Assembly (NCBI GenBank): GCA_015501595.1
Contig: JADNRX010000160.1
Span: 54,339 to 118,338, forward strand
Direction of reading: 5' to 3'
DNA from: Hymenopellis radicata
Lineage: Eukaryota > Basidiomycota > Agaricomycetes > Agaricales > Physalacriaceae
DNA: 64,000 nt
Part shown: in pieces, positions 3,151 to 51,424 of the stretch
Position numbering within the stretch: position 1 is the first letter of the stretch
Layout of the letters: the number at the start of each line of letters is the position of its first letter
The notes under the pieces: generated by a model
The model's input: the letters and a program-made list of their open reading frames with translations, nothing else
The model's database searches: none
What the model was told of the DNA's origin: nothing
Translations under genes and position numbers: made by a program

Positions 3151-4229
3151 AATCCAAGGTATTAGCAGCATGCTAACAATCAACGGTAAGGTAAATGCTA
3201 TTCTGCCGGGACACTCACCAATAACCCATTTGCCAACGAGAGCATGGCATGCACATATTGTAACACAGTTAGATGTGCAGGTATTTGTAGGCCAGTTTGT
3301 GGATGCACATATGCTTTACGCGAAGGCTGAAATTTGGGGCCATGGTGGTTGCGGTTCAAAGTTTGAATTGATTAACAGACTGGCGAATGATCGACTTCAC
3401 AATTCTTAAATGATTAACGGACTGAAGGGAAATGCACAACGAACTGAATTAAAATGCGACTTGTAGGTATAAGAAATAGTATGCAAAATTTAAATCTAAG
3501 AGAGGTCCATAAAAAGAGGCGCCTCTTGCTCCGCCTCAGCATCCGCCTTGAACAACTCGATAAACTCCTGCATGTCTGGCATGGATAGATCCTCAACAAT
3601 GCCATCATTTGCGGCAGCGAGGTCCACCTTGGCTGCTTTCCAGACCCATTTCATTAACTGAAGCTCCTCAAAGTGCTCGGAGCCCAGACGCGTGCGAAGA
3701 TCAGATGCGGTGAACTTGCCGGAAGAGAATCAACCACCTGATGGTGATTTCTTGAGATTCTGGGTCCGAGCCAGTTTGAGTATGAGTTGAGTATGAGTTC
3801 TACTCAAGTACCACTCAAACCACTCAAGTTAGATAAATTCCATGATTATTATTGATCTGCAAAAGAAAACTCAAGCAGTACTCAACGTACACTCAAGATG
3901 TACTTGAGTGCCACTACTTTGATACCGCTCAGATGAAGTAGCCCTCGCTTCCACAGTGCTCGCTTCCGTGATGGATGGTAGCACCCCGCTCCCTGCCGGC
4001 TTAATTTGGCCTCTTTCGACTGAGTGCTAGGCGCCTCAGAGGCAACCGCGGACGTCGAATGAGTGACAGGCGCAATCGACATCGGTTCCGGTATGCTCAT
4101 CCGTACAGTGGATGCCCACGTTGTGAGCGCCGGTGGTAGAGGCGGAGACAGATTGTGTCAAGGTTAAAGCGATGGGCTGAGTGCAAAATTTAACAGTTGG
4201 AACAAGAAGAAAGTATACGTGTAACATAC

Positions 4230-4600
4230 GCGAAATGCCAGACAAGAAACCACAATCTCATGGAACTTTGTCATCGAAGTGGCGATGGGATGTGTCTTCC
4301 ATAAATTGACGCTCTTCCAGAACACCTCGTTCAGCCGCACGTTGCGAGGGATGCGGACACGGCCGAGAAGCGAGTGTCATGTCTCGCATGAACCAGTGCC
4401 GCAGGAGCATTGGGCCTGATCGTTGACCTGGTTGAAGGTGGCGAGGATGGAGCCTTCCTAACGAGACTGGTCGTTTTCAAGAACTCGTGGAACGGCTCGC
4501 GAGTCAACGAGGCGATGTGGAGCGCGAGAAAGTGCATGACTTTTGTGTACGCGTCTTCGACCTAGGTGTATGGCGCGATGAGGCTGGTTTCGGTGCTTAG
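4230..4600 (-). pseudogene. Possible second captured gene fragment in E1, unidentified
   Basis: Minus-strand frames here look coding: KVMHFLALHIASLTREPFHE in one frame, then EGSILATFNQVNDQAQCSC and RNVRLNEVFWKSVNLWK in another, broken by a frameshift and a stop. The residue pattern is that of an ordinary globular protein, and it differs from the hAT and low-complexity sequences around it. I do not recognise the family. Confidence 0.3.
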
Positions 4601-4857
4601 AGAAATGCAAGGTCAGTTCAGGGTCTATGTGACAGAGCGAGTAGTCTTACATATCTCCCGTCATTTCTACATCCCAAGGCTAGCAACATCATCAGTGAGA
4701 GGGTTATAGATATCGAGTAAACAACGCATACAACTCAGTGCGTAAGCGCTCGTCAATCTGCTTTGCGCGCCCTCAGCAACTTCCATTACCTGGGATATTA
4801 TTATATGCGTGAGACTTGCACACACGAAGAAAGACAGAAAAACCACGCACATCAAGG

Positions 4858-5872
4858 ATAGCGACGTCTATGTGTCCGCCACGGATCATCGCAAAAGATT
4901 CACTAGAGTCGAACACAGACGCGCCAGGGAGGAGAGTGACAGTGTCTTTGCCGGCATTGATCAAGTCTCTGGGAAAGAATAAGCGCTGGGGAGCGCATCA
5001 TATGGGAGAAACACACTGGCACATCAAGCTGCTTCTCAGTCGGGTACGGTCCCATGCCTAGCATGCCGTTCTCACTCTGGAGCCACACACGGACGCCGGG
5101 GGCGGCATGCCGATTCCCAGGTTAACGTGGAAACCGTCCTGGATCTCCTTCGCGGCGCGCCTAGCGATGTACCGTCGCTGCGCCTGTGCGGCAGCCTTTT
5201 CCGGCGTTACCGACGTGTCCTCCTTTGCCCCCGACGTCGCGAGCATCACAAATTCAACCATCTTTGGCGAGGTTGCTTGCACTATCCGGTCGACGTATAT
5301 ACCAGGCAGGTGGATCGCGTTCGGACGGGCACGACCGTTTCGGCCTCGACGATGGTCAGCTTCGCGTTCTTCGCCATGACGGTGCTAAAGTTCTGAGCCG
5401 TGTATTGCCGACCTCGTCCACTTTCCATGCCCGCATGAAGGCGACATCGCCAGCGATGGCGGGCTCGAGCACGTACTTGCGACCGTTGATCCCGGGAATT
5501 TCAACACCAGCGGCCATGCCTCCTGGCTTATATCGCACCGCGATGTCGCCATCTTCCACGGCTGTGGAGGCGCCCGTCGGGGTGTAAAATGCAGGAATGC
5601 CGGTGGTGTGTGCGCGAATTCGTTTTTCGCCCTTGAGATAGAGCGCTTCAAAGGCCTTATTTCTAATCGCATATGAGCATTGTTCACAATGCGGTGAGTG
5701 AGAACATACCCTCCGGGATACGACGCGACAATTTTGCCGAGCTGCTTGGTGTTGAATCTGACCGGGGCAACAGAAGAGAAGGGAGGTATCAGACGAATGA
5801 TAAATCGATAATAAGTCGTGCATTAAGTTTCCCCGAAGTGTTGAACGCGTGTCCGAGGAGGTCGAAGGTCAA
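4858..5872 (-). pseudogene. Captured fragment of succinyl-CoA:3-ketoacid CoA transferase (SCOT)
   Basis: In order on the minus strand I read LTFDLLGHAFNTSGK, KQLGKIVASYPGGY, NKAFEALYLKGE, GIPAFYTPTGAST, LEPAIAGDVAFMRAWK, RRYIARRAAKEIQDGFHVNLGIGMP, VWLQSENGMLGMGPYPTEK and [20 protein letters not shown]. These are SCOT (mitochondrial ketone-body activation) blocks spanning both the A-like and B-like halves. It is not functional. The stretch between LYLKGE and the GIPAFYTPTG block is short by about a dozen residues. A further deletion with frameshift follows NLGIGMP, and the last part of the enzyme is missing. At least one intron (GTGCCA...CCCAG near 4960-5020) is retained, so genomic DNA was captured, not a cDNA. 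It sits wholly inside element E1. Confidence 0.85.
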
Positions 5873-6000
5873 GTTGGAGGATACAGGTGTGAGGTGCAAG
5901 CGGGTCAAGGTGTGCACTAAGCGCGTTCAACCGTCGTGGTGGCGGTTGCTGACAAGGAGGGAGGGGCTTTGGCTATGTTTGCCAAGCGACCTAGGCGACG

Positions 6001-6050
6001 CCATTGTGTACCCGACGGACTATCCGACCGGTCCGTCGGGTACACAATGG
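6001..6050. repeat. 20-bp perfect hairpin at the shell/cargo junction of E1
   Basis: Arms 6001-6020 (CCATTGTGTACCCGACGGAC) and 6031-6050 are exact reverse complements around the 10-nt loop tatccgaccg. A copy in inverted orientation with one substitution and one deletion lies at 44628-44676 in E4. Confidence 0.9.
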
Positions 6051-7295
6051 ACCACTGATCGGCGTTGCTCACGTTGCAGACACCGGCATCACGGCCGGTT
6101 TTCAATCTTGCCTCCTACCTTCACTCTCTGCTCTGCAGGCCGTCCCAAGCCATTCGACGTCTCGACCGTGACGGACGACTTTTCCGCCTCGAATCGCGCT
6201 CGACTCTCTCGACGAGCCGCGCGAACACGTAAGCCTCCCGAGGGAGCCGCAACACTTTTTGGCAGATGGCAGTGGGCTTCAAGAGGCTGAATGAGCCCCC
6301 GCGCCATCGTGTTTGTGCCTCCAACGAGGCAAAGGTTGGATTATTTGAGGCTGGATGGCGTCGCAGACGCAACCAGCCCAAGATGGTACGTACTTTTCAT
6401 TGTTCATCTTTTTCCTAGTCAACTTGACGGTATGTAGGCTTCTCTCACCAACGACACCTCATCATGTCCCTTCCTCCTTCCATTCAGACCCCCCTCGTTA
6501 GCCACTTTCTCCGCCTGCTCGTCGAGTAACCCTATATTTACTCTGTTCTAACAGGCCTTTGATGTCCCCCAACCGCCGCTCGTTTTTACCGAAAACGCCA
6601 TAGAGAACATCCGGCATAGAGTTCCCAAAAAATCTCTAAATCGAGTCATTTCTCACTCTTCGTCGTCGCCATCCCATCCGACACTACTTTCGGATACCCC
6701 AACCTCGTTCACTGGTACGGAGTATAATACTCCATGTGCTCACCTTCGCTCACTCTGTTTTTAGGCGGTTGGAGTGTATCGTCGGCGAGGGGACAAAGCC
6801 GCAGCAGTCAAATTAGACTCTGTCCTCCCAAGTCAGCCCGCTCCACATCCTCTTGGTCAAGCAGTCGAATTTATGTACGTGCTCTTCATCACTTTTCTTC
6901 ACCGCATCACCCATTCCAATTCCAGAGTAAACTACCGTCTTCACGGAGGTCTCTCGGATCGCATCATCGAATCAATTCCCATCCCACTGCAATCTGACCG
7001 ACGCCCCACCATGCGGCAGATGCTTGACCTCATCACACGCGGTCCAATGGGCCGGTACATTTACCAGTGGTATTTCCTGGTGGAGTCCGGAGTCGGGCTT
7101 GCCCATAACGACGACGACGACGACAAGTGTCATTGACGGGAGTACGCGGCTAGCGCTGCCAACATTCGTATTCGCTGGTATGTTATATGGCTTCGTCAGT
7201 GTTCCCAGTACTCACAATGTCTCTTTTCCAGCCCACTCGCTCAGTCTGAATGGACGCGTCGCTCTTCCGACCTCAAGCCCACAAGATTCGTCCAG

Positions 7296-7520
7296 TTAGC
7301 CTGCCATCACCGCTGATGCGGGTCGTTTCCTTCGCCTCTTCCCACCACTACCACCACGTAGTGAGCGACGGCCGTCGCCACGGTCTCCTCTTCCAACGAT
7401 AAACTGGCTGAGATTAACGGAATCAAGCCTAAGGTTATGCTCAGCGACGAGGAGAGTGTACTCATTACTGCCCTTCCTCGACACCACACTCAGTGTCGCC
7501 CACACTGGTGTCTTCAGCAA
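7296..7520 (-). other. Arg/Gly-rich ORF conserved in the E1/E4 shell
   Basis: The minus-strand ORF ends in FIVGRGDRGDGRRSLRGGSG followed by KRRRKRPASA. The equivalent segment of E4 (40644-40838, plus strand) keeps FIVGRGGRGDGRRSLRGGSG with few changes. The Arg/Gly tract resembles an RGG box, but I see no recognisable folded domain. Conservation between the two copies may only reflect their common origin. It could be an exon of a captured gene. Confidence 0.3.
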
Positions 7521-9934
7521 GACCGCCGCTGCCTCAGACGGGATACGTCGTTTGAGGGTGTTTCATAGATGCTGACAGCCGGTGTGTTTGACCTTGGATC
7601 TTTCAACCCCCATCTGAACTTTTGTCCTGTTAGCAGCAGTACTGCGAGGACAACGAGGACGGACGGACGAGGATGAGAGGTACACTGCCCCCTTTCTCTC
7701 TCAGCCAAATTGACTGACTGAATCCTGTCTTAGGTGGCTGTCCTCTCCTAGGCGAGTCACTGCTCCACGCCAACACCCAAGACATAGTTGCCTGGTGATG
7801 CACGCACAAGATATATATGGAATAAATGACTGGTACGTCCGCGCGAATAATGGTGTCACTTTTGCCCGAGCCGCAAGCAATAGTTGTCCATAGTTATCGA
7901 AATGCCCAGACCCTTTTCTGATGCTCTGTCGAGTGGGACTTGAGAGTATTTGAGTTGAACTTGAGGTTGCCTTACAGATTTGAGTGGACGATGCCTTGAG
8001 ATGGGGTTGAGTGCATTTTGAGTAGCACTTGAGGTTTGAGGGCTAGCCGTCATGTGCGGAAGGTTGTGGAGTGCCTCAAGTGGTACTTAAGTATAACTCG
8101 TACTCAACTTATACTCCAACAGGCTCGGACCTAGGTATCTCAAGAAATCGCGGTCAGGTTTTACAGAGAATAGGCGCTCGCATGGGACTGATGTGGACTG
8201 AACAGCGAGAACGTCGAGGGCGATGCGAGCAACGGTAGGATAGCGATGATGATTCGCCTGTAAAGCATAAGTAACAAATATTATGCGAAGGGAATACACT
8301 CACTGCCCAAAACTCCAGGAGGTTCATGTCCTCTTTGACCTTTGGTATCTTAGTCTCCAGATACGCGGCGAGCTCTGCCTCCCAATCTGCTCCTGCTGCG
8401 GCATGCCCCTGAGCCGCCTGTTGCTCCTGTGCCTCCATTTGTCTTGTGTACTGCTCACGGGGAGAGATGATTTCTACCTCATTGTCACTGTCGTCGTCAT
8501 CATTGGCGGAGGAAGACGCTTGAGGTGCAGCAGCAGGGGCAGATGCCGGCTCACTTGTAGGAGCTGGAGGTCGGGAAGAGAGAGAGCCTAGCACGTCAGG
8601 CTTGAGTGCATATTCTGCCATCTAGACAGATATTAGCAAAGTGGAGTGAAAGATATGTTCGATATACACACCCAGTCGCGCACAATTTTCAGTGCTTCTG
8701 CCTGCCAATCCTTTGGGTTCTTCTCGCCCTGCAGCCTTAGCCCGTTTCGCCTCTTTTTCTCCGCCCCAAGCCATCTTGACGTAGTTGAGTTTCCAGTATG
8801 GGTGAACAACTATAAGCAAAGTCAGTTATGAAAATGATTAACGGACAGTCGACGTACACATTGCCATCAAGTACGCGGGTTTCTGGTCAAACTTGAGGTA
8901 ATATTTTCGCATCTTGGCAATACCTGCTTGAATGGCGGGGTGATATAGGGCAAAGTTGTCATCCTCGAGAAGTGTCTCCCACTTGGTCATGACTTCCTCG
9001 AAAACAGGAATTGCTTTCGCAAGGTCTGGATATAATTCCGAAGAAAACAGCTGCTGGACGTCGTTTGCGATCTAGTAGGGTATGAGATAGGTAGAACATA
9101 ATGAAAAGAGCCATACACACTTTGAGAATAGTCCGGGCATCCCTCACTCGCTTCCAATCTTCCACCTCGAACCTGCATGCATGCCACGGAATCTTCTTGA
9201 TAATCTGGCGCTTCTCATTCTGTATTACTGTCATAGGACCAAACCTGAGGTCGGCCGTTGCTACAAACAAGTTCACAGCCTGGCACAAAAATGATTAACG
9301 GACTAAGATAAGATGGGACTAAAAACACACCTTTTTCAATTTGTATGCCCGGTCCATCATTCCATGTGCTGAACCCCACCATGTATTTCCATGAAGGACC
9401 ATTTTGAGGACAGGCTTGAGCATCAGGAAAAGTGGTTCTGCCATTGAGGAGACCTAGGCCAACTATAGGGCATACAGTTGCCCTAGGACGTACAAGTCCA
9501 GAATCTTGGCAGGTCGCCGTAAGCCACAGTCCACGGGTGCCCCATTCCGGAGTCAACCTCAAGTCAACCTGAACTGACCTGAGTCATCCTCAGCATACTC
9601 TATGTTAACTGAGAACTAACTATAGGATACCTATGCAAGCTTAAGATGCATCTAAGTGTTGATGAATTCACCCATGGCATGGGTCAACGCATGGGTCAAC
9701 TACTGCAGCGTCAATTCAATGCACAGTGAATATAGCTGATATCATCTGAAATTGAGATCTACAAGACACGAAGAAACATAGTAACAATATATATATCAAA
9801 CAGTGGTAGGTTGTTATATTACTAGTTGTCCTCATGTTCGTCCCATCTTCGGTTGTCACCACATCGTCACAGCACAAGATGCCCGAGTAGGTACTTGTCC
9901 TTGTTGTCTGTGAGCGCTCATCCAGGTCGTGCAG

Positions 9935-11444: not shown

Positions 11445-12259
11445 ACAGCCACCGGGAAGGCGGAGGACTAGTGGGAGGGGATACTGAATAAAGTAGCTAC
11501 TTAGTTAGAGTTGAATCGGCCTCATAGGCGAATTCTTCGGCGGCCCCTCAGTGTTGAGACTGAGAGGCTGTTTTATGTCCAGTGAGTTGAGGTGCAGCAT
11601 CCTAATGAGCTAGGCGACATTCTGTAAGCCAAAAACTCATGTATACGTTGAGAAAGTGCATACCGTGTCATGAGCCACCAGATCTGGTGTTCCTTTTGTT
11701 GTCGTCGCCAATAAGGCCCGTAATGGTGTTCGTGAGTGGCCCATGCACGTCGGCAATGATCTGTATGGGACATAGACATCCTCGCGGATAATAAGCAGCT
11801 GCTAGTGCGCGCGAAAGGTGGCATGTTCCGTGACTTCGACTTGTAAGGTTACGTGGTGACTTTCCCATATGGGAAAGCTCACCATGTACTACGTCTGCTG
11901 TATGTGGCTTCTCCAGAGGGCGTACATTTATTACGCCACGCGCGTCCTTGCAGAAAAAGGCGGCCGTTACAGAAACAAATATTAGAAAGCCCAAGCACAT
12001 CCAGAGGTAATAGTGGCGGTTAGAACGAATTTAAACAGGCCGGAGAAAGACAGGGAACCGAATAAAACCAGACAGAAGAGGCCCAAGAAGTTCCGAGGTC
12101 CGAAGCACGTCGTCGTTGACGTGCCATGGTGGCGAGCAGAGAGAGAGATCAAACTAAGTCTGATCAGTCCTGGATCAGTCTTTGAGTTGATCGGCACTCG
12201 ATCATTCTCGTCTTACCACCAGCACCTCGTTCAGCCATTGTCTAAGTCTCCTTGGCCTC

Positions 12260-13480
12260 TCTCCTTCCGAACGCGTCAGCCTCCCGGACGGAGCAGCAAC
12301 ACCTCCGGATGACGTTGACGAATCACCCGCACCGTCGCCTTTCTGCCGGCCATGAATTGAGAGGACGACTTTTCGCCGTTCTGGCGACAGCATCAATGCA
12401 TAAGCCTCCGCCACGGAGCAGCAACGCTCAAGGAACAACGCTGACGGGCTGGAAGAGGCTGGATTAGCGCCCGCCCGTCGTGCCAGCAACATCGAGGCAA
12501 GAAATTTGGATGTGGGAGTTTCTTGACGGCTTCCAACAGCTGTGGACGACTCATCGCCGTTCTGCTTTTACGGCAACCGCAGAGTGCCTTCAACAAGGCT
12601 AAGGGTTGAGATTTGGGTTGGATGGCGTCGTGGACCAGCGGTGCGTACTGCTGCTTGGTTTTTATTTTGTTTTCATTTTAATTTGCCTGAACAGCCTTGA
12701 TGCTCGACCTTCAGCACGAGATCCACTGTCTTCAATCGATTCTTGTCCTCCTCCTCCTCCACAACGACGACAACGACAACAAGGACGCGTCAGCCTCCAG
12801 GACGGAGCAGCAATGCTTAAGGAACGACGGCGACGGGGCTGGAAGAGCCTGGATTGGCTTCGCGCTGTCATGCCATTTCCAACGGCTTCCAACAGCCGTG
12901 TATGGAGAGGACAACTTTTTCTGTTTTGCTCTTCCAGCGAGCACGATGGCGCGAACACGTCAGTCTTCGGAGCGGTGCAGCAATACCGCTAGATGGCGCC
13001 AGGCCAACGTCAGGCTTTAATCGGCAGATAAGTCTGCGCGGTGCCATGTTTTTCGTTGGCCATGTGGAGACGGGCAGCGAACGAGGTGCGTCCTAGTCTC
13101 GATTTCCAGACGTCCTTCCCCTCCGTCCACAACACCATCGCCCTCTGAATCGCAGCGCTTTCTTTGCGATTCCAACGGCCGTGGATTGGAAGGTCAACTT
13201 TTCGTGGTTCTGCTCTTACAGCGAGCACGGCGCGTACACATAAGCCTCTGAGATGGAGCAGCGCCACTCCTCGAGAACGGTGCTGGGCTTAAAGCGGCCA
13301 GGTAAGCCCCGCGCCGTCATGTGGACGCCTACAACGAGCTAGAATCGCGGTGTCGAGGACGCGTCAGCCTCCAGGACGGAGCAGCAACGCTTCTGGATGA
13401 CGCTGCCCTCGCCGCTGTGTCGTGTCAGTGCTTACGACAAAGTCGAGAGTTGGGATTCGGATTGGATGGCGTCGCAGACG
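12260..13480. repeat. Irregularly repeated exon-like modules in element D
   Basis: The block GCGTCAGCCTCC(A/C)GGACGG followed by AGCAGCAACGCTT recurs near 12275, 12400, 12790, 12955, 13240 and 13360. It is interleaved with (A/G)GGACGACTTTTCGCCGTTCTG-like and GGCTGGAAGAGGCTGGATT-like blocks. Related modules occur in E1 (about 6230-6390), E3 (about 22380), E4 (about 44390 and 44900-45075) and C (about 48815-48960). In several places a module ends in a splice-donor-like GTACGT followed by a T-rich run. Frames do not stay open across modules, so a protein is unlikely. A structured or spliced non-coding RNA is possible but unproven. Confidence 0.6.
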
Positions 13481-16416
13481 CATCCAGTCTAAACTGTGCG
13501 TTCTTTTCCTAACCCTATGATTCTTAAACTGACACCTTGTTCTTCCGAGACGCAACACCTACACAAGCTAGCGAGTCGTGTCGGCCCTGGCGTGGCAGCA
13601 TAGCTCCGTCGCGGATGATAAAACTGAGCCGACGCAAGGTGACACTCTCTCGGGTTTGGGAGAGCATACTGACTACCCCAGCCTTCCTATGTACATACTT
13701 ACAGGCTGCTGTGTACATACCTTGCGAATACATTCATTTTTTATCGTACATTACCAGTGCGTTGACACTCCTAGGAGCGAAAGGCGACCAGTGGACACGT
13801 GGATCTTAATCTGAATATAGTATGATTGTTGCGTGGATGGAACTTGGGCTCAGTACAGTACACGCCGTCTTATCGGAAGGGTCTTCATGCAAACAAGCCA
13901 CACTGAAATTTAATACAGCTCTAGTTGTCTGTGGGTGGCATAAGACAAGTACAACTACTTAAAGAGCATATATACAACTGTGGACACCTCTGGAATGTGA
14001 TGTTTGAGTAGGTTACACTAAGTCTACCTAAGCTAACATGTTAGTTACCTCAAGTTGACTATGAAGTTGCACCAAGTTGACTATCGAGTTGAGTCAAGTC
14101 AGCCGGAGTGACTATATGCACTCTGGTGAACTATAGATATAGCTCTTGTATAGCTCCATACCTAAGGCAACTAAACACCAAAGTGATTTTCCTGATGAGC
14201 GCGGACTGCAACTGACAGGACTCGAAGTATTGGATGCGCTGTCCGGATGCGTAACATTTGACGATAAAGGTACGGAGGATGGCGATGACGTCGAGCTTCC
14301 CGTCAAGGACGCGGTTGTCTTTTGTTCTCGGGGTCATAGCTCCAGATAGCGTGCGCACTCTCCATGGCGGCTTTCTTGGTGATGACACACATGATGTCCC
14401 CAACTCCAAGGTTAATGGTATGGGCCAAACACCTATAAGATAAATTAGCAACGTACAAAAAAGCAATGAATAACGTACATAAGGAGATTTGTGAGGTTGT
14501 TCCAACCGCCCAACTTGTGTGCCAATAGCATGGCATCAAGAGATCCAGCTAGGGTCTCATTGCTGGAGCCGTTATCGGCGGTGATCCAACCCAGCTATAG
14601 GAATAATCAATGCCAAACTGTGATCGTGTGAACGATCAACATACCTTTTGGAGCTTCTTCTTCAAGTCCACCACGCCAACTCGAATCAGGATACGCATAA
14701 ACGTGAGCGATAGGGTGGGGCCGTCGTGCTCTCCACGGTGCGACTTGAACCCGACAACCTCCTTCCGCAACTCCCAACGATCGTTGCCATCGGAGACAGA
14801 CACCTTAATCCAGGAGATCGACGCGCCCATGAACGCCTCCTTGGTCTGGTCCAATGTCCACATATCCTCGGTAGCGGACACTTTGCCAGGTGTGTCCGCT
14901 ATTTCCTTGCGAACGGCCGTCAACTTATCCACACACGCATTATGAATGTAGTTTTTGACTTGATGTGCAGATGGCTGCTCGGTGGTTTTCGTTTTTGGGC
15001 GGAAGGAAACTTCGACGTTGCGAAAGAAGACATTGTCGGCGGTGGCAAAGCTCTTGAGGCAGGTAAGTCAACTGCAATGCATAGGAAAAGAACTACTCAC
15101 TTGATCGCAACAACAGATATACTTTGCCACATGGTCCAGAACGCTCTCAAACGTATACTCCCTAGGCCCCGTCACCTTCTGCAAGCCCATCGCCTCTAAT
15201 GTCCCGGTACGGGCTGTCCTTCCGCCTCCTGTGCTCGAGCCTCAGCCTCCTTTGCCTTCTTCATGTCAGGCTTCATGGCATGATGATGCGGCTCCAAGTT
15301 CCTCTCCTTGCACCCCTTCTCGTACTCGTCCCAATGCTGGCGAATGTGGAATCGGAGTGTGGAATTGCCGCCTGTCAGAAAGGAGGATCTACGGGATTTA
15401 CCCAGAGTACTAGGTCTGTCAATCATTGGTCTGTTAATCATTAAGCTAACTCACATGCAGCTGCTGCAGATCCGTCCTTTCTTAGGCTGACCACCCTTCT
15501 CGAAAAGAGCACTACTTCTGGGCTCAAAGATAATGTCGATGTCGGCGGCTGTCTCGCGAGTGGAACGTTTAACCGTTGAAGCCTTAAGTGCGTGTTAGCT
15601 TGACACATATGAGCAGTATGACACTTACGTCCTCCTCATCCGTTAGTATCATGATCTCTTCGACCACTTGTGGGTTATCCTTGGCCTTGGCCTTGGCCTT
15701 GCCTTGCCCTTGGCCTTCGCCGCACCCGAGGCCGTCTTTTGCTTTTTGGCCGGACCTGGCTGCTTGGCCTTGCCCTTTCGCTTCAACTTGGACGATACCT
15801 CAGCCTCCTGGTCCTCCTGGTTGCCATCGTCGTCACTGGAGTCCTCCTCCTCAGGTGCGTCGTCAGCCTATATTTGTCTGTTAATATTTTTCAGGAATTG
15901 GTCACGATACGTACATCCTCTTCCTCTTCGCTACTGTCGTCAGTTGCTGTTGTTGGCGCCTTCGCCTTCTTGCCAGACTTCTTGCCGCAGCCGCCTTCTT
16001 GGCCTCGCTGGCCTTCTCAGTAGACGTGGAGGTGCGCTCTGAGCGACGTTGTGCAGACATAGCCGAAGGAGTTGGCGTAGTAGGTTGTTGTAGGTGCTGA
16101 GGGACACATATTTATGCGGAGTTGTGTTTGTCTATGATATTTTCCAGCGGCTATGCGTGCACGGACCACTTATCTAGCCCGATTTGGAACTGTACGAGTC
16201 GTACCATAGCTCCCTGTCATTTTATAGCATTTTTATTGTTAATAAGAACAACAAGTCTGTTAAACATTTTTTGTCAGGAGTAGTGTGTCAGTTAATCATT
16301 TGACTTGGTAAGTGGCGTGCATGACCATTATGAGGTACATGCACGCAGTTACCATACTTGTTTGGGTGTGAGCAGAGAGGGCCTATGAGACCTAAAAATT
16401 GATAGAGCTTGCGGCG

Positions 16417-20153: not shown

Positions 20154-20225
20154 GGCTACGGGAACAAAGGGGTTCGGTTCTGCTTGAATCTTGTCTTGTT
20201 CTTGATTGATTTTCTCTTCTTCTTT

Positions 20226-31175: not shown

Positions 31176-31227
31176 ACGTGTTTGACCGGTAAGTCTCTCC
31201 TCTTTTCTTTTCTGCTATCGTCCTGTT

Positions 31228-39480: not shown

Positions 39481-40953
39481 CTCGGGATGAGGATGGATGC
39501 GCTGATGAGGATGCGCTGATGATGAGGAGACGCAGTGATGTAGACGACGACACAGATGCATTGTCTACATCAAAAATCACGATCTCCAGCACCACCTCCG
39601 CTTCCACCACCACCATCTCCACCACTGTGACCATCACCACTCCCACTCCCACCCACCACCGCCACCCTCAGTCTGCATCATGCACGACTGAGTGTCCCTG
39701 TGCCATTGCCCGAGGGTAAAACCTGACCGTGATTTCTTGAGATATCTAGGTCCGAGCCAGTTTGAGTATGAGTCGAGTATGAGTTCTACTCAAGTCTTAC
39801 TTGAGGGACACCACAACCTTCCGCACATAACTATCTCAAGACTCAAATCTGTTACCTGTAAGGCAACCTCAAGCTCAGCTCAAATACTCTCAAGTCCCAC
39901 TAGAGCATCAGAAAAGGGTCTGGGCATTTCGATAACTATGAACAACTATAGATGTCGGGCGCCAGTGCCTGCGGGCAAAAGTGACACCATTATTCGCGCG
40001 GATGTACAAGTCATTCATTCCGTATATATCTTGCGCACGCATCGCCAGGCAACTATGTCTTAGGCGTTGGCGTGGAGCACTGCCTAGGAGAACAGCAGCA
40101 GCGGCCACCTAAGACAGGATTCAATCAGTCAATTTGGCTGAGAGAGAAAGGGGGCGGTGTACCTCTCGTCCTCGTCTGTCTCCTCGCAGTCGCTTTCCTA
40201 ATCCATCCTTGTCATCCTTGCAGTCATCGCCATCATCCTCGCCAGCATTGTAGGTCACAATCGTCCTTGCATCATGTACCATCGTACGTGTCATCATTTG
40301 GGTCGGCGTCATCGTGCAGGTCCGTGTTGTTCTCTGCGGGTCCTCATATCTGTTCACCTAGGAAATGGCACATCAGAGCGCACTCTAGAAAACAGAAAAA
40401 ATGTACAGTGTCCGAAACACTGTGCAGCGCATTATCAAATTCGATGAATTCAGGCACTGCAGTGCTGGGATTTTTGTTTTCGCACGTGGACGACTGCTGC
40501 TAACAGGACGAAAGTTCAGATGAGGGTTTAAAGATCCAAGGTCAAACACACCCGCCGTCAGCGTCTATGAAACACCCTCAAATGACGTATCCGGTCTGAG
40601 GCAGCGGCGGTCTTGCTGAAGACACCAGTGTGGGCGACACTGAGTGTGGTGTCGAGGAAGGGCGGTAATTTGTACACTCTTCGTCGTCGCTGAGCATAAC
40701 CTTAGGCTTGATTCCGTTAATCTCAGCCAGTTCATCGTTGGAAGAGGAGGCCGTGGCGACGGCCGTCGCTCACTACGTGGTGGTAGTGGTGGGAAGAGGC
40801 GAAGGAAACGACCCGCATCAGCGGTGATGGCAGCCTAACTGGACGAATCTTGTGGGCTTGAGGTCGGAAGAGCGACGTGTCCATTCACACAGAGCGAGTG
40901 GGCTGGAAAAGAGACATTGTGAGCACCCTATGCACTAGGCCTAACTAAACATA

Positions 40954-41207
40954 CTGTACCGTTTCGACCGGATATTCCCATATCGCGTCACACCGGCCGG
41001 CGAAGCGAACCTATATATATCCCATATCGCGTCACGGAGCCTCGGAGCCAGGCACACCCTTCCAAAAGCGGAAATTTTCGGTCCCGCCTGCGGCGGGACA
41101 GTCCGAATCGGGTAATTCCCGCGCGCGTGCCTGGCAACGAAGCTGTTCGCTGTAAGTTCGCGGCATATCGCGTCACATGCCGCGAACCTACGGTCGAAAC
41201 ACTACAG
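40954..41207. mobile_element. mariner-type MITE in the left foldback arm
   Basis: The termini CTGTACCGTTTCGACCG and, inverted, CTGTAGTGTTTCGACCG are flanked by TA at 40952-40953 and 41208-41209. It is 254 bp and non-coding, with several 'atatcgcgtcac' motifs. The mirror position in the right arm is empty and shows the intact single TA. Confidence 0.88.
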
Positions 41208-43480
41208 TACCCTCTTATTAGAGGGGAGCGTGATTCAATATTCGCTCTAACTAGAGGCCTCTAATTAGCGTAGATATCTAGATACACCCGGCATCTCTGG
41301 CAGGCCAGCAGCGCACTGATGCCATACATGCCGGGTGGCTGGGCTGGGGTAGGGTATTGGCAGGTAGCTAATAATAGATAGATCCAGCAGGTACATATCC
41401 AATAATAGATTCCTTCAATGAAGAGATTAGATATTGATGGGAGATGATCAGTGGACCCTGGGATGGGTAGGGGATGCCCTTGGCTACGCAATTGTGGCGC
41501 ATTTTTGATCAGGGCAGGGCAGGGATGGATGGGGTGGGCAATACTGAATGCTGCTGTAGGGGGTGGCTGCTGGGGTGATGAAAACCTTTTTTATAGTTTT
41601 TTGGGCTGGGAATCCAATGGTATAAACCATTTTGCAATAGCTTCAAAACTGGAGGAGATATTAGGATCGCAAAAATGCGCCACACTTCTACTAGGCTTTG
41701 TACAGATCCTATAGCCTTGTGACTTTGATACCTTTTAGAGGTACTATAGAGCGATATCTGATATCATTTTCAGGTGATTTCATCGAAGGGTTCAAGAGAT
41801 ATATCAGGATGACTGCTCCAGAGCCACTAGGGATATAGCATAGGATCCTGCCACTCTGGGGACCTGAGACTTTGATACATCGTTTATAGTAGTACTAAAC
41901 CTCTATTTATATATAGAGAGTGTCCCCAACCCAGTAGTCCATGTATAGATAGGTCCCCAATGCTGTATTAAGCAATTTCGCATTTTGGATTATTTAGCAT
42001 AGGGATACCTCTCTAAATTGTACTGGGCTACCTTTAGACATCTATTTACAACCTTTTGGCAAAAGGAACCATGTCATTTGGTAAAGGGACCAGTGTTCTA
42101 GAGGTCAGTCTTCCTCCTCACCGGAGTTTTGATCAAAATTCCCACGCTCCAGAGGGAGGATCGTCGACTCAATTTAACGTGTCTCACACATGCTACTGCC
42201 TTTATTTCTTCTGTAGGACGTGTATATATGTTATATATATGATCTCCAGGTGTCAAACCAGTAATTTAATCCAGTAATCATGTTAGAAACTCGTCCTAAG
42301 CTCTGTAGACAGGCTAGGCTATCTTCAGATAGTAATATTTCATGTTCTACTTCAAAGGGCACCCTAAAAAGTGTTCAGTTATAAATATATATTATATTGA
42401 ATGAAGTAAGAGGCACCTCTTATATGCTACACATGAGAGGTAACAAAGTGAACATGCGCAGTAGACTAACTCTTGCATAACTGCTTTCAATGCTTGAACA
42501 GGTTGTAGGACATAACTGTTATCTGGCTGACTGATGTAATACCTCTAATATCACTCTAATAACAAGGTCTAACTCGCTACAGAGCTTAGGACGAGTTTCT
42601 AACATGATTACTGGATTAAATTACTGTTTGACACCTGGAGATCATATATATAAATATATACACGTCCTACAGAAGAAATAAAGGCAGTAGCATGTGTGAG
42701 ACACGTTAAATTGAGTCGACGATCCTCCCTCTGGAGCGTGGGAATTTTGATCAAAACTCCGGTGAGGAGGAAGACTGACCTCTAGAACACTGGTCCCTTT
42801 ACCAAATGACATGGTTCCTTTTGCCAAAAGGTTGTAAATAGATGTCTAAAGGTAGCCCAGTACAATTTAGAGAGGTATCCCTATGCTAAATAATCCAAAA
42901 TGTGAAATTGCTTAATACAGCATTGGGACCTATCTATACATGGACTACTGGGTTGGGGACACTCTCTATATTATAAATAGAGGTTTAGTACTACTATAAA
43001 CGATGTATCAAAGTCTCAGGTCCCCAGAGTGGCAGGATCCTATGCTATATCCCTAGTGGCTCTGGAGCAGTCATCCTGATATATCTCTTGAACCCTTCGA
43101 TGAAATCACCTGAAAATGATATCAGATATCGCTCTATAGTACCTCTAAAAGGTGTCAAAGTCACAAGGCTATAGGATCTGTACAAAGCCTAGTAGAAGTA
43201 TGGCGCATTTTTGCGATCCTAATATCTCCTCCAGTTTTGAAGCTATTGCAAAATGGTTTATACCATTGGATTCCCAGCCCAAAAAACTATAAAAAAGGTT
43301 TTCATCACCCCAGCAGCCACCCCCTACAGCAGCATTCAGTATTGCCCACCCCATCCATCCCTGCCCTGCCCTGATCAAAAATGCGCCACAATTGCGTAGC
43401 CAAGGGCATCCCCTACCCATCCCAGGGTCCACTGATCATCTCCCATCAATATCTAATCTCTTCATTGAAGGAATCTATTA

Positions 43481-43733
43481 CTGTACGGTTTCGACCGTAA
43501 GTTCGCATAACGCGTCACGCGGGCCTGAGAACTGAACTTAGCTTAAATCATAACGCATCACGGACCTCAAATCCAGGGTCATATCGCCCGAAATGGCAAA
43601 AATTTCGCTCCCGCCTACGGCGGGACGTCCAAATAAGGTAAGTCGCGGCTCCGTGCCTGAAAACGAACTTGTTTCCTGTAAGTTCGTTGCATAACGCGTC
43701 ACGCCCCATGAACTTACGGTCGAAACAGTACAG
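43481..43733. mobile_element. mariner-type MITE in the right foldback arm
   Basis: CTGTACGGTTTCGACCGTAA and its inverted partner CTGTACTGTTTCGACCGTAA are flanked by TA at 43479-43480 and 43734-43735. It is 253 bp. The corresponding position in the left arm (near 41400) lacks it. It belongs to the same family as the 40954 copy but is a separate insertion. Confidence 0.88.
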
Positions 43734-44627
43734 TATTGGATATGTACCTGCTGGATCTATCTATTATTAGCTACCTGCCAATACCCTACCCCAGCCCAGC
43801 CACCCGGCATGTATGGCATCAGTGCGCTGCTGGCCTGCCAGAGATGCCGGGTGTATCTAGATATCTACGCTAATTAGAGGCCTCTAGTTAGAGCGAATAT
43901 TGAATCACGCTCCCCTCTAATAAGAGGGTATGTCTAATTCTACCCTACAGCATAGGGTGTTGTGAGTACTTGGAACACTGACGAAGCCATATAACATACC
44001 AGCGCATACAAATGTGGGCAGCGCTAGCTGCATACTCCCGTCAATGACACTTGTCGTCGTTATGGGCAAGCCCGACTCCGGACTCCACCAGGAAATACCA
44101 CTCATGCCAACGCGTTGTTAAAGACGTCGTCGAAGTGGATGCCCTATAGTCATCGCGGGTGATGGAGGTCTGTCGTCGGGTGATGGAGAGGTGTCGTTGG
44201 TAAGAGAAGCCTAGATACAGTCAAGTTGAGTAGGAAAAAGATGAACAATGAAAAGTACGTACCATCTTGGGCTGTTGCGTCTGCGACGCCATCCAGCCTT
44301 AAAGAATCCAACCTTTACCTCGTTGCACAAACACTATGGCGCGGGGGCTCATTCAGCCTCTTGAAGCCCGCTGCCGTCCTCCAAAAAGTGTTGCGAGTCC
44401 GTCGGGAGGCTTACGCGTTCGCGCTGCTCGTCGAGAGAGTCGAGCGCGATTCTAAGCGAAAAAGTTGTCCGTCGCGGTCAACCTCTTGGGTGCTTTTAAG
44501 ACGTCGAATGGGTTGGGACAGCGTACAGAGCAGAGAGTGAAGCAACGGTGTATCGTGATGGTAGGAGGCAAGATTTAAAACCGGCCCTGATGCCGGTGTC
44601 AGCAATGTGAGCAACGCCGATTCTGGT

Positions 44628-44676
44628 CCATTGTGTACCCGACGGACCGGTCGGATAGTCTGTCGGGTAACAATGG
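44628..44676. repeat. E4 copy of the 20-bp hairpin
   Basis: Arm 44628-44647 is identical to the E1 arm. The second arm, 44658-44676, has one substitution and one deletion. The loop is the reverse complement of the E1 loop, as expected from the opposite orientation of the two elements. Confidence 0.85.
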
Positions 44677-46152
44677 CGCTGAATCGTAGGTCAATGGCGC
44701 TGAATCGGAGGCCCGTCCCATTGCCGACTCCGGCATCAGGGCTGTCTTGCCTCCCACCACCACGATGCGCCTCCGTCCACTCTCTAAGCTGTCCGCCATC
44801 CCACCCGTTCGACTGTTCTGAGCCCTACGTTTCTCATAGACGTGCCCGAACGCACCCAAGAGCCAGGACGACTTTTTCGCGCTCTGCTCTCTCGACGAGC
44901 ACCGCGAACGCGTAAGCCCTTGGACAGAGCAGCAGTGCTTCTGGGACGACGGCGACCTATTTGGATGGTGACGGGCCTCAACAGGTCGGAGCAGCCCCCG
45001 CGCCGTCGTCATCAGGCCTCCAATGAGACAAGGCTTTGGGGTTGGAAGCGTCGGCGATGCTTGCCATCCAACAAGGTACGTATTTTTCGATCTTTCTTAT
45101 TTCTACTCGAATTAAAGTTCTCTAGGGTTTCTTCAATTGTGTTCCGCCCACGACTACGCTCTGTCTCCCCTGAGGAGTTTCCGTCAACACACGGAGGTAC
45201 GACGTCTATTCTCCACGCCTGAACGCCCCACTACGTTCTTTCATCTCTGCTCTCTTCCATGGCCATCAACCTTCTCTGAAGCCTTCGTATCCTGCGGGTA
45301 GTGGCTCTCGACTTTGACTACGGTGCGACCAACGACGACCGGGGCGATTTTACTTACATCCCCATTCACCCCAGTCATTGAATATGTTACTGCGGCTGGT
45401 CTCCTCATCAGACATCGCGCAGGCTGTCGGGGACTTACGCGAAGCTTTGGCGGTTCGTATTCCTGAGCACCTTTCACTGCACCATTCCTTACCTTCGTCA
45501 TAGATACGCGCCTTTACCACCATGGGCACAAGCCTAAACAACGACGCCTTCTTCAAGTGACTAGAGTCTAGCCTGCTCGTCTTATAGTCAAAGTACTCAT
45601 TCTGATACTGGCATCGACCGGCGTCAAGATTCTAATTGTAAGTAGACCTGGATTCGTTGTTTAGGCTTTACTGAGGCAATTTTACAGCCCACATGTTCTG
45701 CGGTGCCCCACTCGACGATGATAATGGCGCTGGCCGACGACACAGTCGGCGTCCTACGCAATTGTGTCGTAGACGCCCAACGTGAAAACCATCGACAAAC
45801 ATGAACCCTTCCCTGGCAACGCACCATCATTGTCGCTTCGCTGGCTCACGCCTGCTTTCGTCATACAGCGCGCTGCTGACGCCTACCGCCATGTGTCCGA
45901 CGCAGCCATTCGACTCCAGGCAGTTGTATTCGCCGTACGACTCGCTGCGTTCCGGATCGTACATCAGCTTTCGCTGCTTTTCCAACTCCCCGACGCGTCC
46001 CATCATCTATCAATGGAAACGTGCTTGGGCTCTCCAGCTCCGCTCGCTGCCCTTGATCCACCTGGTGGCGCCGGCCTTCCGATTCTTCTCCGCGCGCCGC
46101 ACACGAAGTACGTCGCGTTGATTTTGAATGTCATTCTTACTAAAACCGGTTC

Positions 46153-49100
46153 ATCAGGAAACTGCCTTTGACCTTAAAACATCTCAAAGCAGAGGCCCAT
46201 TCTTGAGGCAGTTGGGCAACTAAAGGACCTCAAGTCTCTTGAGGTACCTCAATACCTGGGGGTCCTGCCTTAAGAGTCCTTGAGTGGCTTCGAGCCGCCT
46301 TGAACAGTCAATATATACATCAACATCTTAAGGCAAGCCAAGGCACCTTGGAGCAGCACCTACAAGTACGGCGTCCTCAAAAGGCTTTAAGATGCATGAT
46401 AGGCCAAGATTTGATGTGTACTTACCTGGTGCACATACCTCGTAGCCGATGTTACAGTGGAGATGTTTCGCCGAGGCGGTGCGCCGCATAAAGATGCGAC
46501 GACCAATACCCTGGTCGAAAAAATTTCCACATGATGAGTAAGTCCACACAGTGTCGAACAGCGATTCCTCGATTGCAGCCTCAGGCCGTAAAGACAACGA
46601 GGTGACATTGGGGACAGGGGTAGCGTGACGCAGCATCGGGCATCTGTGCCCAAGGCAGCGTGCGGACTAGGCCTGCCTATGTCGCGAGCCACGATCCCAA
46701 CGAATATAAATTTATCTGAGAAGACGCCGCAGGAGTCGGTCACGTTTGTGAGCACAGAACACTGTTTCCTGGATATGCTGCCACTGCAAGGGCTTACGCG
46801 ATTATATGTCGTTCCTCCGGCAGATGTGAGTTCTAGTGGCGCGGCGAAGCTGTCGAACATGCTACACCAAACCGAAGAATAAAATAATGCAAGAACAGAG
46901 GAAAGGAGTACTCACGCAGTGCCACCTTCCGAAACATTACTTGTTGGCGACTCGCAGATCAGATTCATCCTGTCCGGTGGGTCCAGGGCGGAAGAAAAAA
47001 GGGAGACGACGGTACCAGCACGTCGTTGAAGGGTAGCGGGGTAGACGAGGCAGGAAATTGGTGAGCCTAGTCCCGGTCACCGTTCGCAGGCAAATTCTTG
47101 AGCGATACCATACCGAAGCGCCGCCGCCAGCAGACAGCGACGTCATTTTCGAATGGATGCTGCCAGTCGTCTGGGCTTACGCGGCAAGTCGTCCTCCAGC
47201 GGTGCACCATTTTTAGGGTTGCGGCGAGTGGGAGATGTGGAGAATATGTCGTCCACGTTGGCGGGGCTTTCTTGTCGTCGAAAATGCCTCATCACTGTAG
47301 CTGTCGTCGCCGTTGTCTGCCAGTGCAGGCGGACATGAATAGAATGCAAAGAAAAAGAAGAAAAAATACGTACCTGCGCGCCCACACTCTCCAGCCTTGC
47401 AGAATGCACCTGCGGGTGCCTCCTAATCCATTGTCGTCGTTCTCCTCTGGAAATATAGAGGAAAATATATGCCTCAAATTGAGGGCTTAGAGAAGTGGAG
47501 GCCTCATCGATGGAGGGCTTACAGCCGGGGCCAAAATCCCAAAGTCATCCATGGCTGTTGGAAGCCGTCGAGTCCGGGGATCCAGAGGTGAGAGAATGAG
47601 AGGGAGGAGGAAGGAGAGGCCCAGGAAAAAATCTGAAGCTGGAGGCGACGTCGTTGTGGTGGTAAGAAAGAAGAGACGACGAGCAAAGAGCTCTGATCGT
47701 GATCCGGCAAATGCCGGATCGTGAACGGAGCATCCTCACGTCGCTCGGAACGACGACGAGGAGCTCGGAGTAGCCAAAGGACCATCGGGATATCTCGCCC
47801 TACATAGTTAACATAAATTCATGCCATTTCCGGAAGCATTGCTGAAAGAAATGGACGGATACTTGCTTACATAGCAAGTATCCCATCCATATCCGTACAC
47901 AACGAGCATCTGGCTTATTGCAACGCACCGGCTGCTCAAAAATTTGCTTGGATTATATACAACATGGTTATATCTGTCTGACTAGAGAACAAATGTGGTC
48001 TACATTGGCCAGATTTAGTGGCGATGGCATGAAACCGTGAACCGGAATAGTGTTCGGATACGATCACTGTTTGGATTTGATCACTCTCCTTCTTACCCTC
48101 GCCATCGACGACCGATCCGCTCAGGACGACCAGAAACGCGCACGGCTATCGACGCCGACGATACTGGAGCCGTTTACGGCACCTGCGACCGACTTTGAGT
48201 CGTCGTCGCATTGTCACAGAGACCGACTTTGCGTCGTCTCTCTGATCAGACTCTCACTCGTTTCTCTGCCCAGACGACGGGCAGCAGATCATTCAAACAC
48301 GTTGGAGCCCAGATCACTGCCAGCAACAGCGCGTCAGCGAGAAACGTTGAAATCAAGATGGGCACCCGCAGCTAGATTCTGCACGGCTCGGAGAGTGTGG
48401 AAATGATGCTACCCGTCTGCTGGCGAGGCAGCGTGCAAGTACGTATTTTCTATTCTTTTCTTTCATTCTATTCACGCCCGCCAGCCTTGCCAGACACGAA
48501 CCCGGAATTCGACGCTCCGCTGTCTGCAGACAAGCGGCGTCACCGGGGTGCCTATTTTTTGGTCGTATCTTACTACTAACTTATCCTCAGTACCAGGTGC
48601 AACGACTTCACACCAAGACAACATCCCCACCACGACAACGCCCTCATCAAGAAAACAGCCCCGCAGGACGCGGACACGATGGTGGAAAAGATCCACTCCA
48701 GACCACGGTCCCGGATTGGACTCTCACTCGTTTCCTCCTCTCACTTCGACCATCACTATGCACGACTTCTTCCCGCCAAACTAGATCCTGGGACAACTGT
48801 TTACCAGCTTCAAGAGCCCCGGCGGCCTCGCTGGACGCATAAGCCCTCCAACGAGGCTGCACATTATCGAGATGATGGCGGCGATAGTACCGGCGCTTTT
48901 CCTATCCAACAAGGCGGCAACGACGGCCGCGTAAGCCCTGGAACAGGCAGCAGACACCAATGTGTATTGGGTCGGGTTAGAGGCGCCGCGTTGTCTGCTG
49001 GCAACGCGGCGCGATTTGGTACGTTTATTTGTTCTGTTTTATTTTTATTTTTAAAAATTGACATCACACCCTCAGGTCACCACCGCCGCCACTTGCAACG

Positions 49101-50342
49101 ACACCAGCCTTGCCCCTCTCAACTAAATTTCCCCAAGTCCGTTTGCCGCCGGCACATGAGGCCACGTCAGCCTCACGTGCCGGTTGGTTTAAATCCTGAT
49201 CGGACGCAGTTGCGACTTGTGCTCTTACCACCACCTACCGGGACTCCTTCTGCGGTGCTGCTGCTCTGCGCACGGCCTGGCATACACAACCGACTCCTCC
49301 GCTCCTATGGCATACTAGTTGGCGGTGCCATCTGCACGTCATCCCCACATACTGCTTGTCCTACGAATGCGCACTACGAGCATGAACGAGACCTCCTGCT
49401 ACACCTCACACTCGACCACGATGACGCCGACGCCCTGATTCACGACGACGATGCTCACACGACGACGATGCCCACACGACGACGATGCCCACACGACGAT
49501 GATTCCCTCTCAACGATGATGCATTCACGACGACAATGCCCTGACTCACGATTACCGCTGCGTTCAAAGCGCAAAGCCTTCCAGGACGAGGACGACCGCT
49601 ATCGAGGATGAGCATCGAGGGACGAGCACTATTGAGGCCCAAGGACGAACAAGAGCATCGACATCACGAGCATAGAGGACCACGACGATGACCGCGAGCT
49701 ACGAGGACCCAACCGATGAGGACCACATATGAGGAGAGACCCTATACGAGGAGAGGACCGCATATGAGGAGTACGAGGATCACATACAACGAGGATACGA
49801 TGATGAACCGGGATCATGCCGCATGCAATAAGGATGAGGACGACAACATATGCGCAAGGCCACCTACCGAGCAGCAGTATTTACTATTCTAAACCATCGT
49901 AGTAGCAGTAGTATTACAGCAGCTTAAGTAGGCCATCCATGTATTGTATCTAGTAAATGCTTAACCCCTTGCACTTGTCTAACAAATTGTTGTGTGCTGC
50001 ATTTCAGGACTGCAGCATTTGATGTTTCCCAGTCACTTTGGAATGTTTTGAAGTGTATTGGTATGCCCTGAGTCTCCCTTCAGTAGCATTAAGGCATCCT
50101 TAAGTGGTCTTGAGTGTGCCTTACAGCAAGAGCAGTATATTAGCTGGCCTTGAGACATCTTACAGGAAGCTTAAGGTTGCTCAGAGGTATCCTGAGGCAA
50201 CTTGAGGCCACTTGAGGCAGCGGTTACCGCCGAACCTGTATTCAAGGCACCTTGCTGGCATTAGTACTTCAGCCACCTCAAGGAGCCTATATGCCCTTAA
50301 GATATCTGAAAATGCCTTGAGGCCTAGACCCATTTTCGTGAT
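46153..50342. mobile_element. Cargo-type element C (ATCAGGAAA termini, 4-bp duplication) inside E4
   Basis: The left end ATCAGGAAACTGCC and the right end read inward ATCACGAAAATGGG resemble element D. GTTC lies at 46149-46152 and 50343-50346. Subterminal zones contain repeated CTTGAGGC / GCCTTAAG motifs. The length is 4190 bp. The interior has exon-like modules ending in GTACGT (48437, 49018), palindromes (47701-47720; GTCTGCAGAC near 48525), and CGACGA-rich low complexity at 49410-49830. A minus-strand stretch at about 46620-46440 (ATPVPNVTSLSLRPEA, FDTVWTYSSCGNFFDQG) looks like a coding remnant of unknown origin. No transposase is visible. Confidence 0.65.
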
Positions 50343-50369
50343 GTTCTCTTTCAGCCTCTTAATTTTTTG

Positions 50370-50680
50370 TCCTTGCTCTATCCTTCGTCCTCGCCGTCAT
50401 ATCACTCTTCGTTGCTTGCATCATCAAGTTTTCTAATCAACAAGCCTCCATATTCTTGCAACAAAAGCTCAAGGTCGCTGACGCCGCTGAGCGCGGTAAG
50501 ATTGTTAATGCTACATGCGCAAGGGGTTTTGACACGATGGCACATCGGTAAGCTAGTGATTTTTTCCCTCGGGTAATACGTCGCTGACCAGTCTGTCAGT
50601 TTGGCAACTGGGCTGTTCAAAGGTGTCTCGAGGCGGCGACAAGAGCGGAGGAGAGGCGCAAAACTGTCGCGTGCATGAGG
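50370..50680 (+). pseudogene. Captured fragment of a PUF (Pumilio-type) RNA-binding protein
   Basis: The plus strand reads SNQQASIFLQQKLKVADAAE and RGKIVNATCARGFDTMAHR. A GTAAGC...CAG intron (50548-50599) follows, then FGNWAVQRCLEAATRAEERR and KTVACMR. Two PUF-type helical repeats are recognisable, the second with the NWAVQR RNA-contacting helix. The exon junction is one base out of phase, and the rest of the repeat array is missing, so it is a fragment. It retains its intron and lies in the cargo half of E4. From 50690 to 51190 there are further coding-like stretches on both strands (for example KALRKGEKESTFIYSSWNMS on plus) that I cannot assign. Confidence 0.8.
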
Positions 50681-51424
50681 AACAGTTAAATTTTATCATC
50701 TCGGTATTGGCTGATTGTCATGCGTAGAGGGTGGATTGTAGAGCTGGCCACCAATTGCTATGGTTGTCACGTTGTTCACAAGGTGCCTGATTGAGAGGAA
50801 GACATCCGCCTGCTGATCGTTTCCGAATTGCTCAGCCTCGGTCCACGCGACCTCGACCTCCCCCGTTGCACCGCTGATGTCGCCTACTATCGTCGCTTCG
50901 CTGGTTCCCACCTGGCTTATGACACGCCGCTCTCCCTTTTCGTCGTTCAAATCATGGCCATTATCAAGCTCCGCGCAGGCAACGAGTTGACGTGTTATAT
51001 GGCCAGGGTATCGACATAGTCAAGAAGGCTCTGAGGAAGGGCGAGAAAGAGAGCACGTTCATTTACTCCTCCTGGAACATGTCTGAACCGTATCTTGTGC
51101 ATATCTATTTGTATTGCGAGCCTGCCGAGTTCAAGGGATTTCACAGCCAATATCAATACGGGCATTACGACGATTCCAGTACGTCTTGAGTGTACATTGA
51201 GTACGGCTTGAGTTTTCTTTTCCAGATCAATAATAATCATGTTTCAATAATGGAATTTAGCTAACTTGAGTAGTTTGAGTAGTACTTGAGTAGAACTCAT
51301 ACTCAACTCATACTCAAACTGGCTCAGACCTAGGATCTTAAGAAATTGCCATCAGGTGGTTGCCCGAGGATACTCGTTGGGCATGAATGGATTTGGGTGA
51401 GTGGAATACTCGAGTTTACTGGAG

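Follow-up and report, generated by a model that had tools for sequence, protein, structure and literature searches.

In plants, gene capture by transposons with terminal inverted repeats (TIRs) is a main source of shuffled gene pieces; accounts from fungi are few. Mutator-like elements (MULEs) usually make target duplications of 8-11 bp, and Helitrons have neither TIRs nor a target duplication. Plant Pack-TYPE elements, i.e. non-autonomous DNA transposons with host gene fragments, are well known (PMC8903248). Among fungi, transduplication of histone H3 by hAT elements was described in Pyrenophora and other Dothideomycetes (PMC6710886), and one account, in which it is called the first fungal example, also notes other Pfam domains in repeats (PMC3538342). 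According to PMC12730594, TET/JBP dioxygenase genes were captured by several transposon superfamilies, including Kyakuja, and target duplications are of 7 bp in Kyakuja of Laccaria bicolor and of 8 bp in Zisupton and Dileera. In fishes, F-box domains are associated with Zisupton domains, with no evidence of capture by the element in the account concerned (PMC12062965). The literature searched, in which few subscription papers were covered, yielded no account of fragments of ordinary genes in KDZ elements. Here, a window of 64,000 nucleotides of Hymenopellis radicata (the whole stretch analysed, i.e. positions 54339-118338 of contig C475 in an assembly of 75.5 Mb and 1405 contigs) is described, in which three elements, E1, E3 and E4, are very probably non-autonomous members of two related KDZ families that captured host gene DNA and were moved in trans. 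A kinase fragment of the host, next to one of the elements found in the genome, has one database match, to Hymenopellis radicata (88% over 90%), a species placed in Physalacriaceae. Below, "C" with a number is a contig label and "L" with a number an extracted locus.

The elements, their target duplications and the related empty site are:

3731-8164: E1, putative non-autonomous KDZ-type element of family A, 4434 bp, with both end motifs, a 7-bp duplication and a related empty site
3724-3730 (left) and 8165-8171 (right): target duplication of E1, AGAGAAT, perfect over 7 bp
2579-2897: related empty site, a paralogue of the E1 target, with a single 7-mer at 2646-2652; the alignment runs through the junction
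21111-25354: E3, putative non-autonomous KDZ-type element of family B, 4244 bp, recognized by end motifs, a 7-bp duplication and terminus alignment
21104-21110 (left) and 25355-25361 (right): target duplication of E3, GGAAATC, perfect over 7 bp
39716-51362: E4, non-autonomous element of family A, 11647 bp including nested repeats, recognized by end motifs and a 7-bp duplication
39709-39715 (left) and 51363-51369 (right): target duplication of E4, CCCGAGG, perfect over 7 bp

The inverted termini and perfect 7-bp duplications that the initial annotation had ascribed to all three elements were confirmed. The termini form TIRs, running CA..AC in family A and CA..AT in family B; E1 and E4 fall into family A and E3 into the related family B. 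The ends were examined at 22 loci (19 extracted from the genome and 3 in the window), a partial sample of the genome's end sites; 13 of these were two-ended by motif, C21 being excluded from the 13 as its right end falls outside the end motif, though a separate comparison shows that end. A duplication of exactly 7 bp flanks 11 of the 13 two-ended elements, and none of the 13 has a longer one, including the 8 bp typical of Zisupton and Dileera. When the left flank of one element was paired with the right flank of another, 0/156 combinations matched over 7 bases (the best at 5/7), which excludes chance duplications. A degenerate end motif (≤3 mismatches) had 37 matches in the genome, compared with 1 for the reversed pattern. 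At the empty site of E1, the left flank alone aligned with a score of 42, the maximum in 100 shuffles being 33. A Helitron origin is ruled out by the TIRs and the 7-bp duplications.

The strongest case of gene capture is the fragment carried by E1:

4779-5755, minus strand: fragment of the gene for succinyl-CoA:3-ketoacid CoA-transferase (SCOT) in E1, identified from Pfam and PDB, with 85% DNA identity to C1073:169324-170399

Its identity as SCOT, proposed in the initial annotation with somewhat different limits, stands (CoA_trans, 3.3e-14 in Pfam; SCOT structure 3dlx, 1.9e-16 in PDB). Retained introns had also been claimed, and three probable ones were recognized in the fragment, at 4790-4850, 4969-5020 and 5663-5709; the second now has a GC donor, compared with GT in the parent. 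The resident locus C1073:169324-170399 is 85% identical over 977 bp, and the flanking element sequence of the query is unmatched there. Over the 301 bases of this locus that were read, which span two introns, identity is 92% (280/303, gaps counted), with open exon frames. Since these two introns match the resident locus, the capture of SCOT took place at the DNA level, as had been suggested.

The same SCOT fragment is present in C586, a complete element of 5043 bp at a different site, with the duplication TTATGCC; there its reading frame stays open over 307 aa (CoA_trans, 3.2e-52). In a comparison with the parent over 289 ungapped columns, 11 substitutions and a 6-bp indel proved common to E1 and C586, while 7 substitutions were private to E1 and 6 to C586. 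These shared changes indicate that the fragment was captured once as DNA, introns included, and that the loaded element then moved to a second site. Among the 25 genome matches listed, SCOT lay inside E1, inside C586 and at the parent locus, and it was not seen outside the ends in other copies. Thus, E1 and C586 each hold a host gene fragment between their ends, and its parent (of which 301 bases were read) lies elsewhere in the genome.

Retroposition is ruled out by the retained introns, of which two in SCOT match the parent and others are present in the PUF fragment of E4 (see below). A related explanation, by which processed or random pseudogenes entered the elements through independent insertion, is hardly credible: the region is indeed rich in nested insertions, but the introns are retained, and the presence of the same SCOT piece inside the ends of two insertions contradicts it for this gene.

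As the initial annotation had noted, no transposase is visible in E1, E3 or E4. The domain scan covered all 23 stop-to-stop open reading frames (ORFs) of ≥120 aa, 14 further ORFs of 100-119 aa lying outside it; none of the 23 has a transposase domain, and CoA_trans was the sole Pfam family found. Likewise, no match on C475 was present among the genome-wide KDZ matches listed (of 166).

The superfamily was therefore assigned by the ends, from relatives that share them. An element of 13.8 kb on C609 is bounded at either side by family B ends and contains coding sequence for KDZ (PF18758, 1.5e-16) and CxC2 (PF18803, 2.2e-26) domains. In C462, of which the sequence read covers one end, this end is of family A, with CxC2 (3.4e-23) and, 2.6 kb inward, a KDZ match. 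The termini of C609 and C462 can be aligned to the termini of E3 and E1/E4. Among the KDZ matches listed (of 166 per genome), a match within 6 kb inward was found at at least 5 of 49 ends, giving at least 6 matches compared with 0.65 expected. In C609, C14 and C462 the KDZ domain points toward the CA-end, at a distance of 2.3-2.6 kb, and in C574 and C675 it points away from the end, at 3.3-3.7 kb. C609 and C462 have related transposase and companion genes (aligned parts 42%, 36% and 42% identical), and at its opposite end C609 has an ORF similar to one of C685 close to the family A end there (25/80 residues). Besides the transposase, a companion gene without a known domain is thus common to KDZ elements of families A and B, and another, near the far end, to C609 and C685 (L051 9364-10000 and L064 8616-9215; L052 2421-3743 and L062 691-2010); NCBIfam returned no family for the companion genes.

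Because KDZ transposases occur in same-ended relatives and the 7-bp duplications are those reported for Kyakuja, E1, E3 and E4 are best regarded as non-autonomous elements of the KDZ superfamily ("Pack-KDZ") and not as MULEs. The Pack-type reading given at first thus holds as regards non-autonomous TIR elements with pieces of several genes, while the superfamily had been missed. If the elements were Pack-MULEs in the strict sense, mobilized by a transposase of the Mutator type, a similar layout would be expected (TIRs, non-autonomous elements, gene fragments with introns), yet the usual MULE duplications of 8-11 bp contrast with the 7 bp observed in 11/13 elements and exceeded in none, and the same-ended relatives hold KDZ domains, no genome-wide search having been aimed at a MULE transposase; this origin is very improbable.

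Gene capture is not limited to the window. In this partial census, a supported gene piece was found in 7 of the 13 two-ended elements, and six genes are represented: SCOT, an eIF4A paralogue, an Mpf1-type PUF gene, GH79, aldehyde dehydrogenase and an MFS transporter. Outside E1, E3 and E4, the domain scans covered the longer ORFs (one each in C1132 and C1362, two in C1384 and more in the remaining elements). The GH79 piece of C1018 (L060) was recognized by a beta-glucuronidase match in PDB (5.7e-06) and by PF16862 (0.0046, below its cut-off), the main ORF having no Pfam or NCBIfam family. The aldehyde dehydrogenase piece of C114 (L061) is supported by Pfam (3e-10) and PDB (7e-14). The MFS transporter piece was found in C1384 (L057; TIGR00891, 9.3e-16) and, at the same insertion site, in C21 (L049; 2.3e-10). 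These scores are far below the whole-protein cut-off of TIGR00891, as expected of a gene piece; the PDB search returned nothing for it, and the MFS ORF of C1384 has no Pfam family at 0.01. A piece of a zinc-cluster regulator in C741 (PF04082, 0.0092, below the cut-off; no NCBIfam family) is suggestive and was not counted. By its left flank, the same family B insertion is present on C21, C722 and C1384 (L049, L053 and L057), which exceeds the copies of two haplotypes; C722 stops before the right side.

In E3, the captured piece is of a different character:

22711-23069, minus strand: fragment of an eIF4A paralogue in E3, frameshifted, with a DEAD-box/eIF4A match in Pfam (2.5e-17)

For the Pfam searches with this fragment and with the PUF fragment of E4, the sequences were typed with X at the breaks, the PUF introns being omitted. 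The E3 piece, uninformative on introns, had been taken as eIF4A. Resident eIF4A is present on two contigs, C624 and C347, which are 97.6% identical over 1770 bp, so the assembly probably holds both haplotypes. The fragment is 72-73% identical to these alleles, and the differences fall at 16/102 first, 14/105 second and 57/100 third codon positions. This pattern points to a functional donor gene with a long history apart from resident eIF4A, and indicates that the piece derives from a diverged eIF4A paralogue. Resident eIF4A was rejected as the donor, as neutral decay of its copy would not give an excess at third positions. Ranked by residue count, an eIF4A paralogue from Mucidula mucida comes first among the 120 proteins listed (85/96; next 75/96; resident 72/96), and by search score five animal and plant proteins (57-67% identity) rank above it. 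When the Mucidula paralogue was searched against the genome, the best match besides the E3 pieces was canonical eIF4A (77%).

The fragment in E4 is split by one of two nested repeats:

41208-43959: palindromic repeat inside E4, with relatives at 29866-31180 and on C747
45858-46001, plus strand: part 1 of the Mpf1-type PUF fragment, residues 126-172 of Mucidula protein P0200
46148-50344: repeat of 4.2 kb nested in E4, 98% identical to a stretch of C1207, splitting the PUF fragment
50405-50845, plus strand: part 2 of the Mpf1-type PUF fragment, residues 322-435 of P0200

With these two repeats, nested insertions make up most of the 11.6 kb of E4. No clear target duplication was found at the edges of the 4.2-kb repeat. 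The palindrome is near-perfect (arms 99-100% identical), and such arm identity suggests recent copying or gene conversion.

The piece, known at first from the right of the 4.2-kb repeat and described simply as PUF (Pfam PUF, 7.7e-12), is of the Mpf1 type, called "meiotic PUF protein 1" in some database records, and has another part beyond that repeat, at 45858-46001. Its retained introns were corroborated, two probable ones being present in part 2, one at 50548-50599 and one, with an uncertain donor, at about 50685-50727. In the ranking by residue count, Mucidula mucida again comes first, by a small margin (74/88; next 72/88), and by E-value other fungi stand above it, with Trametes meyenii first. 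When the Mucidula Mpf1-type protein was searched against the genome, E4 alone was matched, at the two parts listed above (11 candidates scored). The resident PUF gene on C518 was rejected as the donor, since neither the DNA search nor tblastn connected it with the fragment.

A decayed Mpf1-like piece (residues 32-124, 33% similarity) lies outside the three elements, at 11526-11834 on the minus strand. It scored 38 bits compared with a maximum of 27 in 200 shuffles, and was matched by 15/120 PUF proteins at E≤10. It ends almost where the E4 PUF begins (residue 126-129), and lies near repeats common to E1-type elements (12268-13510), perhaps the E2 of the initial annotation. No excision mark, duplication or element boundaries were found around it. 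A host Mpf1 gene may thus have been scattered locally. That the PUF piece of E4 is the resident gene itself, broken and moved between two element ends as a macrotransposon, is improbable. In its favour, the 11 candidates scored in the assembly included no further Mpf1 sequence, and the 11526-11834 piece stops next to the start of the E4 piece; against it, that piece is weakly similar and shows no excision mark or duplication, and SCOT was copied with its parent left in place.

Of the three fragments, then, a parent with the same introns was found in the genome for SCOT (1/3), whereas those of E3 and E4 lie inside the element ends with no donor found in the assembly for either the eIF4A-paralogue or the Mpf1-type piece. 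Loss in the host lineage or a gap in the assembly is the plainest reading of both absences. Acquisition of the two pieces in a different fungus, with horizontal transfer of the elements or their ancestors into the host, is unlikely. The missing donors and, for the eIF4A piece, the excess of third-position changes, i.e. a long-separated working donor gene, would fit such an origin; however, by residue count both pieces are closest to M. mucida, which belongs to the same family as the host (Physalacriaceae), and ancestral capture followed by donor loss, or an assembly gap, fits equally. For PUF, the argument from Mucidula is weakened by its small margin and by the other fungi that rank above it by E-value.

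The absence of these two donors weighs against gene capture by KDZ elements as the explanation for E3 and E4, and so do several features of the elements. By duplication length E1, E3 and E4 would be Kyakuja-like, but Kyakuja ends are reported to be CA..TG without TIRs, and those described here have TIRs and run CA..AC or CA..AT. The flanks of C609, the best of the full-size candidates, agree at 1/7 positions, without a matching duplication, and those of C1362 at 2/7. The KDZ clade is tentative, and transposition is deduced from the sequence. Finally, the census is partial, and the genome-wide transposase search covered KDZ alone.

With these points taken into account, capture by non-autonomous KDZ elements would proceed as follows. 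KDZ transposases of full-size, same-ended relatives would move E1, E3 and E4 in trans. Host gene DNA would be copied directly into the element interiors, with its introns and with the parent staying in place, as at the SCOT locus; template switching during repair of a broken or gapped element is the likely route. After capture, the loaded element could transpose again, as indicated by SCOT in E1 and, at a different site, in C586.

If this is true, non-autonomous KDZ elements with pieces of six genes in few copies constitute a new kind of gene-shuffling element. SCOT, as a recent capture with its parent, may be used for dissecting the capture mechanism, and the elements would serve as a record of genes that the lineage once had. 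As a tentative generalization, agaric KDZ transposons might be habitual gene capturers, a fungal counterpart of Pack-MULEs, and some pieces (the eIF4A paralogue and Mpf1) might be the sole genomic trace of genes that the host lacks, following loss or breakage of the donor or import from another fungus.

Other features of the window, with no part in these arguments, are:

17514-20225, minus strand: ORF of 903 aa of a long terminal repeat-type retroelement (reverse transcriptase, RNase H and integrase zinc-binding domains), left of E3
36623-37336, minus strand: ORF matching the Ulp1 protease family (PF02902, 4.2e-05, barely past the cut-off), possibly a gene of another transposon
53593-54893: tandem array with a unit of ~126 bp
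55292-56011, minus strand: ORF near the ~126-bp array, which may be NLR-like, as judged by eye

The elements can be compared with several known systems. As described in PMC12730594, Kyakuja-1_LB and Kyakuja-2_LB are alike in their 7-bp duplications, in the KDZ transposase of full-size relatives, in having CA at one end and in belonging to a group that captured a TET/JBP dioxygenase. They differ in their CA..TG ends, in the absence of TIRs and in the position of TET/JBP beside the transposase, whereas here TIRs, AC or AT ends and fragments of several ordinary genes are present, with no transposase in the small copies. KDZ1-KDZ3 of Cryptococcus neoformans share KDZ, TIRs and a large full-size form (9-11 kb, compared with 13.8 kb here), but their reported duplications are of 8 bp (KDZ1) or 4-8 bp (KDZ2 and KDZ3) (PMC12810828). 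The hAT elements with histone H3 are likewise fungal DNA transposons with a host gene between TIRs (PMC3538342, PMC6710886); their duplications are of 8 bp (PMC6710886), and one gene is much amplified, often with hAT domains inside, in contrast to the KDZ ends, several genes, low copy number and lack of transposase found here. Helitrons of Pleurotus ostreatus also contain captured genes in a basidiomycete transposon, but they are rolling-circle elements, and their captured genes are reported to have few or no database relatives and an unknown source (PMC4289320). Plant Pack-MULE and Pack-TYPE elements (PMC8903248) have the same habit of carrying gene fragments, which is met here in a fungal host, between KDZ ends and with a 7-bp duplication.

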